Position numbers and translations under genes: made by a program. A stretch of 64,000 nucleotides of DNA from Branchiostoma lanceolatum. Taxonomy: Eukaryota; Chordata; Leptocardii; Amphioxiformes; Branchiostomatidae. Where the stretch lies: positions 10,968,910-11,032,909 of the forward strand of contig NC_089724.1 in NCBI RefSeq assembly GCF_035083965.1, read 5' to 3'. Shown one piece after another: positions 3,266-38,884 of this stretch. How positions within the stretch are numbered: the first letter of the stretch is position 1; the number at the start of each line of letters is the position of its first letter. Under the pieces are notes generated by a model. That model worked only from the letters and a program-made list of their open reading frames with translations. It had not been told where the DNA came from and made no database searches.

Positions 3266-6200
3266 TTATTTATTGCAATCGTACAACTTGTTGATCTTCT
3301 GGATATCCAGAGAACTGAGCTCATTTGCATCTCCCAGCACGATGCCGTTCAACGGAAGCTGCAGGGGGAGGGGGGCATAGAGATGAAAGGCTGAACATAA
3401 AACATTCGGCGTGCCATTATCTGTATGTTTTATAACCAAACATTACTGCTTTCGGCGAGAGAAATTATGCACGCATAGCTATGATGAAAAAAAAAGTTCC
3501 ACTAGGGCGGCGAGCTCGCTGCGACCGAGGCTCAGCGCTCAACGAATTTCATAGATAGAAAAAGCGAAACCTTTTTACACTTTGTGTGTTTTCTTGTCTT
3601 TGCAGTCATACCTTTACATATTGTACGATATTTCAATTATGAAGTGAAGGGTTACATAACTCAAATTTAGGTCTTAGCGAGGTAGCAGCGCGATCGCCGT
3701 CCACTGTAATGGGGGTTTTACGAAGAGAAATATTTCGGACTACTTTCGGACCACTTCGTACCTTTGGGATGATTGTGTCCCTCCCGTTGGCGCTGAAGGC
3801 GTCACTCTCGTAGTGCATGACGGACCCGTAGTCGTACGACATCCCTTGAGTGCGGGTATCGGTCTGCTTGTCGAAGTTGTACTGTTCATCTGCGTCACAA
3901 ACAATTCCACTGAGTCATTGTTAGTATTCACTATTAGTCTTAGCCTGGAGTCCAGACTTGTTAGCTATGGCCCGCTCACCAAGATTCACTGGCCTGCCGG
4001 GCTAGCGGATCTTGGGGAGCGGACCAAAGCTAACAAGGCTGTACTCCAGGCTATTTAAGTCTACCATTCATCAAATAGACACATCTTCCGCAACTACTTA
4101 CATGTAACATACTTCTGAAGGTCAGAATTTCAAGGGCAATGCTATAGAATTGCGTTCTGTGTCATGTCATTCCTGGACTCTGTTTTTATTACAGTGGACC
4201 TTACAATATCATCTGGAGTAAACCATTCAGCACAAGGTAGAACAAGAGGGGTGTTTAAAAACACACCGGCGACGTAAGAAGATGATAATTATGCAAATCA
4301 GGAGCTAATTTATATAATCAATGAGGGGATTTAGCATATCCGATAGGACTCTCAAACTAACTCGTGGCACATGTAATTAGAAAAGAGAGGGATATCGATA
4401 GATGTAAAAAAAAGCACCTTGTTCAACGTTTTGCAGCCTGATCGTCACGTAGTCGTCCCTGTCCGGCCGCTGATGCTCGTGCCAGAAGCCCACGGCGTGC
4501 ATCAGCTCGTGGATGATGGTTCCCTTCCAGAGACACCCGCTGCCGAGGGACAGCTCCTGCACCCCTCCGCTCACGCCGATATCCGACCAGCAACTGGGAG
4601 AAAGAAATAGATGATTGCTAATGGTAACTGGGAGACGATATTTCTAAACGCTGTACGGCTATACACTTCCTTGAAGACAGAGTAACCAAAGTCAATTCCA
4701 CTCCACTAATGTAGAATCTTGTCCGGGCTTTAGTATTAGAATGTTACTTTTAGATACTGGGAGATAAACTATGTAGAACCTATGGAAGTGCAAGCGTTAC
4801 TTTTGATTTTGATGTTGTTTGACGGTTGAAAAATTGATTTCTCTGTAGACACAGAGGTTACCCTGAAAACAGTTCATTTGAAATATTTCCCAAAACTGAA
4901 TCATTGATATACGCGATCGACACGCCGAAATTCAACAATTTCCTCACATTGATGAGTGTTGAATGTTAGCCATTGACCGATAGCCAAACCTTTAGCTTTC
5001 AGAATAAAGATAGAAGGGGTACCCTGAAAGCCTTTTGATGTGGACGTAGTCACGCTGGTTAGTTCGGGGCACAAACCGGATACAGGTCTGCTGGTTGAAC
5101 TCTTGAATGGCGGCTTCAATTCTCCCGACCTCTGACCCGGCAGGGGCGGTCAGAAGTACGGCTAAAAAATAAACATGATGTAGATAAAGATGTCTTGAAC
5201 CTCACAATGCTCTCGTGACTTCTACATTCCTTCCAATAGAAATGCTTAACGTTAAATGAGCTCGAGTTTGTTTAAGGTACCGTTGAAGGGTGGCTGAGGA
5301 GTTGTGGGATGTTCTTGAAAAAACCCTTTATACATCTCTGCAAACCTTCCTCAACCTTAATTTTTTTCAGGTATTACCTTATAGCAAGGTGATAATTTAG
5401 GCAAATCAGTATGACGTCATGATTACGTCATCAAGATTTATAAGGCCACGCCCATTTGTAGAAAAAAAGGCTCTCCTTGGCTTGTACTTCGATATTTATC
5501 AATATAACTTTGCAAGAATGTACATGATAGTAATACTTAAAGAATTATGCGTGTCAACGAGTATATTTTGAAATGACGATTTTTGGCGTTTTTTTTTGTT
5601 TTAACAGAGAGCTTGCAAAAGGATAGTCTGTATTCCTAAAGCTACGTCAAAGAGCTTTCCCTGTTAACACTGCGCAATATAAATAGGTATCTTTATGTAC
5701 ATTGTAGAGTGGAACTCGTTGCTACCGAATGCAATGCGTATTCATGATATAACGTTAGCTTTAAACAACGCTTGCAGTTAGATGTGCAAAGGTTAGGTGT
5801 TCAGTGCGAAGCTGGTGTGTTACGACAAAGGACGGTTGATACCGCGGCTTTTCAGACACAGATACAGACACAAATAGTCACCTCCGTCGATATCACCTCC
5901 GCCCTGGCACACGCCACAGCTCAGTTGGCAGTGGTTCAGCATGTAGTTGGGGTTGGCCTGGCACTCTCCGATATCGGCCCAGTGGGAACAGGACGCGTGT
6001 TCGTCTTCACAGACAGGTTCTGTAATAGAGATTTGAGAAATAGTTTTCACATGTATAATGAAATAACATGGCGTAATGAAAATCATATAAATGTTTGAGT
6101 ACGTGGGGACATTTTTCATCCAGAGTAGTAATGCATTGAAAACGGATATGTGCAGTGTAATGAATTTGCGATAGAAAGGTCACTGACGAAAACCACAAGA

Positions 6201-38884: not shown

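Follow-up and report, generated by a model that had tools for sequence, protein, structure and literature searches.

A stretch of 64,000 nucleotides of the lancelet Branchiostoma lanceolatum (assembly GCF_035083965.1, contig NC_089724.1, positions 10,968,910 to 11,032,909; hereafter the window, in whose own numbering coordinates are given) carries five tandem gene copies, all on the minus strand, that appear to encode astacin proteases with ShK domains placed inside the catalytic domain. Splice-aware models together with Pfam matches put gene A at 30385..38884, gene B at 24438..29446, gene C at 18125..22252, gene D at 11864..16329 and gene E at 3266..9994, and the cluster thus spans 38884 to 3266, exactly the limits given in a first-pass annotation that a model had made from the DNA letters. 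Exons were found by scanning both strands for motifs and by comparing the stop-to-stop segments of the window with one another, the flanks being read as well; splice sites were set by GT-AG, frame and similarity, so that GT-AG boundaries and a kept frame are present by construction. One exon order holds in all five genes, namely a signal exon, prodomain exons, an exon that we call N, the ShK exons, and then exons H, Z, M and C, and because five diverged copies share it, an assembly error is unlikely. The reading frame of genes B to E is open all the way from the signal exon to the stop. Joining the signal exon of gene A to its second prodomain exon gives a stop, which suggests that one small exon is missing from that model; the top-scoring of 15 possibilities for this small prodomain exon, at 37495-37421, fits in phase and splice signals and is offered as a candidate only.

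The individual exons correspond to recognizable parts of an astacin zymogen. The N exon of every gene carries [ND]SRNAI...WP[NG]GVIPYVI.[SG]E[YF] and ends just beyond that motif plus one base. The H exon consists of GSE[VA]G.I, the first helix and then TC..FVPRT, the Z exon holds the zinc motif HELMHA[VA]GFWHE..RPDRD, the M exon holds the Met-turn, and the C exon supplies the last cysteine and the stop codon in each of the five genes. The zinc motif has the form HExxHxxGxxHExxRxDRD throughout, and the Met-turn reads SxMHY in four of the five genes. All five prodomains contain GDI, preceded by L.LF in gene A and by L.LY in the other four; FXGDI is the aspartate-switch motif of animal astacin zymogens (PMC9848320; this and the other articles named below are cited from excerpts of their text). 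Pfam places an Astacin domain (PF01400) in all five proteins, with E-values of 1.4e-54 to 2.3e-60 and scores of 185-204 bits against a curated cut-off of 22.5, and ShK (PF01549) in two, three, three, three and two stretches of the proteins of genes A to E, respectively (E 8.2e-17 to 2.5e-29), gene A having been entered in the search without its signal exon. At these E-values, chance does not account for either set of matches. The gelatinase combination of a matrixin catalytic domain with fibronectin-II repeats was absent from all five proteins, in which Pfam gives Astacin and ShK alone at E-values up to 0.01. The NCBIfam model LegP scored 148.7, far below its cut-off of 300, and was set aside as ordinary family likeness. 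We consider that membership in family M12A stands despite the interrupted domain, since an uninterrupted catalytic domain is taken to be usual in the family rather than defining.

Between the N and H exons lie all 13 of the ShK exons, each of which begins and ends in phase 1. Listed in the order ShK1, ShK2 and, where present, ShK3, and all on the minus strand, they are found at 33261..33380 and 32646..32786 in gene A; at 27687..27809, 27072..27209 and 26610..26747 in gene B; at 20687..20809, 20155..20289 and 19715..19861 in gene C; at 14770..14892, 14356..14475 and 13863..14009 in gene D; and at 7988..8110 and 5897..6019 in gene E. Five of them (ShK2 and ShK3 of genes B and C, and ShK3 of gene D) have Gly-rich and Gly/Asn-rich linkers at their ends. 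The N donor and the H acceptor are also in phase 1 in every gene, which bears out the first-pass annotation where it describes phase-1 exons set in a phase-1 intron. Its count of one to three ShK domains is right at the upper figure and wrong at the lower, every gene model having two or three. Its insert size of about 87 to 190 residues needs correction, the top having been too high and the bottom slightly so: the ShK exons add 87 residues in gene A, 133 in B, 135 in C, 130 in D and 82 in E, a range of 82-135, and the stretch from VIPYVI.SE to GSE measures 90-144 residues. When both strands were searched across the window, an ShK-like pattern matched 13 times, each time in one of these exons, and none of the 13 lies downstream of the protease. 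All 13 encoded domains have six cysteines.

The effect of these exons on the catalytic domain is apparent from the Pfam profile itself. With the ShK exons in place, the Astacin match starts only at position 16-20 of 189 in all five proteins. When the ShK exons were left out, in the three genes tested, the match started at position 2 (A), 1 (B) and 1 (E), and the score was 197.5 rather than 185.1 bits for A, 198.5 rather than 191.4 for B and 210.4 rather than 204 for E. In the medaka hatching enzyme HCE1 (3vtg), the best solved match to the catalytic domains of B and E, VIPYVISSEYS runs straight into GGEVATIEGAM at the corresponding joint, and the solved chain has neither an ShK domain nor any insert at this site. 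The distance from IPY to HExxH tells the same story, being 162-215 residues when the array is included and 75-81 when it is left out, while it is 68-88 residues in 46 of the 48 bacterial astacins that were measured. An AlphaFold model of one bacterial homologue (L004; 16 rows, mean pLDDT 94.3), which is 39% identical to array-free B and A, has a strand at 13-18 that is its VIPYVI and a helix at 26-38, and the insertion site maps to the loop between the two, the structure being that of the homologue and not of the lancelet proteins. Exon order, the split Pfam profile and the position of the loop in L004 thus support the claim, made in the first-pass annotation and upheld here, that the ShK modules are encoded inside the catalytic domain, at a phase-1 intron that separates strand 1 from helix A.

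The bacterial astacins used for the distance survey came from 52 loci identified in bacterial genomes by two peptide patterns, one being WP[NG]GVIPY. Because this pattern served in the search, the set favours an intact strand 1, and the survey says nothing about animals. Distances were taken from 48 of the 52 loci, with four (L029, L041, L045 and L052) dropped because no zinc motif was present in their plus-strand frames. The two outliers among the 48 were L051, at 106 residues, and L046, at 269 residues. Viral contigs contained 47 pattern-matching stretches, none of which encodes a relative. The L046 protein, from the Kofleriaceae genome MAG_26 (JAIOII010001238.1, 706-2280), also has a long insert in its astacin catalytic domain, but the insert is built of other repeats and sits just before the zinc helix, while the loop from strand 1 to helix A is normal. 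The repeats, which resemble VYTWYxDGxVxxGT, take up about 190 residues after the catalytic strands and ahead of the zinc helix, with more of them past the Met-turn, making this an unrelated case of a nested insert in an astacin. Comparison of the L046 insert with sequences in the PDB gave no credible match (best E 0.21), and its predicted model is poor at the insert, with a mean pLDDT of 49.8 overall.

Codon comparisons among the five lancelet genes indicate that the ShK modules are under constraint. Pooled ShK codons gave dN/dS values of 0.25-0.57 over the 10 gene pairs (Nei-Gojobori method, our own script), and the excess of synonymous changes reached Fisher p < 0.02 in nine of these ten non-independent and uncorrected comparisons. 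The ShKs are constrained, yet they evolve faster than the catalytic exons in several pairs. Purifying selection, together with the six cysteines kept in every domain, argues that the ShK exons are translated often enough to matter. In a tree of the catalytic domains the five genes form a clade in which B and C are closest; the clade is expected and proves little because just four bacterial rows were used for comparison. In the comparison of B with C, the counts of matching over aligned bases are 96/123, 115/135 and 118/138 for the three ShK exons (0, 3 and 9 gap columns) and 100/135, 226/350, 175/279 and 61/90 for the four surrounding introns (115, 174, 59 and 85 gap columns).

From these observations we lean towards the view that the five tandem genes encode secreted, latent M12A astacins in which an in-frame ShK array occupies the loop linking strand 1 to the backing helix, where it probably forms a nested exosite. 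In this scheme, symmetrical phase-1 ShK exons would have entered a phase-1 intron, most simply before the array genes duplicated. Exon shuffling, as the first-pass annotation had proposed, is a plausible though unproven route: the ShK exons are symmetrical 1-1 (13/13), and single-exon ShKs in Nematostella trypsins have been read as a sign of the same process (PMC6767649, as excerpted). The zymogen would be secreted with its GDI aspartate-switch prodomain, and cleavage before NAI would release a mature chain starting at or near that motif. This chain would make strand 1, exit the fold into a disulfide-bonded ShK array and re-enter at the backing helix, completing a normal zinc site. The array is most likely to act, by analogy with the fibronectin-II repeats of MMP-2 and MMP-9, as an exosite, an arm of the N-terminal subdomain that serves in binding or targeting; the first-pass annotation had suggested that it could shape the substrate cleft or control access to it. 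Crayfish astacin has a disulfide bond between its last cysteine and the one just after the backing helix, and both cysteines matching that pair are retained in the lancelet proteins. Owing to this bond, a C-terminal ShK domain would begin close to one end of the helix, and the nested array would lie at the other. Strands 1 and 5 of metzincins are parallel, so the ShK and fibronectin-II insertions would share one edge of the sheet as their point of exit.

Several points weigh against this interpretation. Without its array, gene E has a 7-residue surplus at the joint relative to HCE1, and the H exons of genes B to E all carry extra residues there; the surplus in gene E suggests that the H exon supplies a short linker of its own. 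The M exon of gene C (18549-18676, minus strand) reads SIVHY at the Met-turn, with Val replacing Met. Selection on the ShK codons is not significant for the D-E pair (p 0.059), and single ShK exons have dN/dS values of 0.18-0.65, the upper end of which exceeds the 0.21-0.34 of the pooled H, Z and M exons. The tree of the ShK copies is weak: position 1 of genes B to E alone groups (72/72), with the gene A copy outside, and the positions of the array cannot therefore be called orthologous, nor is a single origin of the array shown. Finally, the exosite role is proposed by analogy.

The main rival to this reading is that the ShK exons are alternative cassettes, such that the predominant enzyme omits part or all of the set and has the usual unbroken astacin form, inclusion giving rise to tuned or inactive variants. 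All 32 in/out combinations across the five genes keep an open frame between the N exon and the stop codon, which makes cassette splicing possible; A, B and E, when joined without the array, align with the Pfam Astacin profile from position 1-2, and the number of ShK copies varies among the genes. Frame-neutral skipping follows from the symmetry of the exons, however, and is no evidence for skipping by itself, and both the purifying selection on the ShK exons and the complete set of cysteines speak against the idea. We regard it as possible but doubtful, and it is compatible with the nested reading. A related proposal, which we put forward only tentatively, is that this lineage uses the loop between strand 1 and the backing helix as a port at which ShK arrays of variable size are docked. 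The number of copies would decide which substrate is taken or would gate activation, and a single gene could then yield as many as eight proteases differing in the nested exosite alone. Copy number would then be set by duplication and perhaps also by frame-neutral cassette splicing. The ShK exons might instead belong to separate or dead transcripts, or their order might be an assembly error, in which case the architecture would exist in no protein. Gene models by themselves are compatible with this, but the colinear order and the phases are alike in five diverged copies and the ShK codons are constrained, and we consider it very improbable.

Accepting that a nested array is made, its role could also differ from that of an exosite. 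It may be a structural spacer or stabilizer, contributing to protease resistance, secretion or oligomer contacts while binding no substrate. Disulfide-rich modules and the Gly and Gly/Asn linkers of five ShK exons would suit such a part; no result obtained here distinguishes a spacer from an exosite, and we think the spacer unlikely. The membership of the array in the ShK fold family raises the further thought of a potassium-channel-blocking arm on a protease, for which we see hardly any chance. Lysine is found at the position of the Lys-Tyr dyad in none of the 13 domains, this position having been assigned in one domain from its alignment to three solved ShK-type structures and in the remaining domains by residue number, and the array is acidic, with 2-3 Lys+Arg against 9-13 Asp+Glu. 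According to excerpts of two articles (PMC6409789, PMC10828956), the ShK domain of MMP23 acts on Kv channels although it lacks the usual dyad, and the dyad argument against a channel role is therefore not final.

Other features were noted in the window, all of them on the plus strand. The intron of gene A between the N and ShK1 exons contains, at 34043-35791, an intronless frame resembling a rhodopsin-family seven-transmembrane (7TM) receptor, which is split in two by one in-frame TGA (34850-34852). The first piece matches positions 2-186 of Pfam 7tm_1 and the second positions 207-260, the latter below the cut-off, and the last part of the frame includes 45-bp and 36-bp minisatellites (35144-35571). 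At 47243-47626 and 48831-49400 the window encodes the C-terminal portions of two papain-family (C1) peptidases (PF00112), which resemble each other and are presumably cathepsin C-like. A histone methyltransferase Tudor domain (PF18358) is encoded at 61705-62151, in a frame that we take to be SETDB1-like. The receptor, peptidase and Tudor matches are in keeping with animal DNA.

The closest known systems are the ShKT-astacins, among them Hydra HAS-7, salmon louse LsLGA and Cumia M12-ShK, which, in the excerpts available for them, are likewise secreted M12A proteases with one to several ShKs in one chain. Their ShKs follow an unbroken catalytic domain, whereas here all 13 ShK exons lie inside it and none after. 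The excerpted literature agrees with the first-pass annotation that the C-terminal position is the normal one: helminth astacins carry added domains downstream of the catalytic domain (PMC9848320), about 900 M12 proteins have ShKT in the C-terminal region (PMC6409789), and C-terminal ShKs are described in salmon louse (PMC10828956) and Hydra (PMC8191133). For the salmon louse protein, the abstract of PMC10828956 gives an N-terminal ShK and its results and discussion a C-terminal one, and we have adopted the latter. Lancelets are listed among the animals having ShKT-astacins (PMC9848320). A search of open-licence PubMed Central for nesting or for lancelet ShK-astacins, judged by title and the start of the abstract, found no description of a ShK nested in an astacin. 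The earlier remark that no such description was known is uncontradicted within that literature, although existing gene predictions may already include this architecture without comment. Should our gene models hold, an annotated ShK followed by an Astacin match short of its first residues may conceal a complete but split enzyme. MMP23 is also a metzincin carrying a ShK, and its solved ShK domain (2k72) is a weak match (E 0.48), but it is a matrixin with a single ShK, which follows the catalytic domain. If our gene models hold, the lancelet genes would provide the first case known to us of ShK inside, rather than after, a protease domain. With five adjacent genes of differing copy number, they would also allow one to ask, in a natural setting, whether a catalytic fold can be broken into by exon shuffling and an exosite thereby created. 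A related arrangement is known in the gelatinases, in which, by the excerpted accounts, three fibronectin-II repeats follow the fifth strand and take part in the recognition of macromolecular substrates (PMC10702220, PMC7771667). Like the proteins proposed here, MMP-2 and MMP-9 are metzincins whose catalytic domain encloses an array of small modules held by disulfide bonds, and in MMP-2 and MMP-9 this array is used as an exosite; they differ in being matrixins with fibronectin-II modules after strand 5, as opposed to astacins with ShK modules after strand 1. Provided that the models are correct, the lancelet astacins would become, after the gelatinases, a second animal metzincin family known to us with a nested module array.
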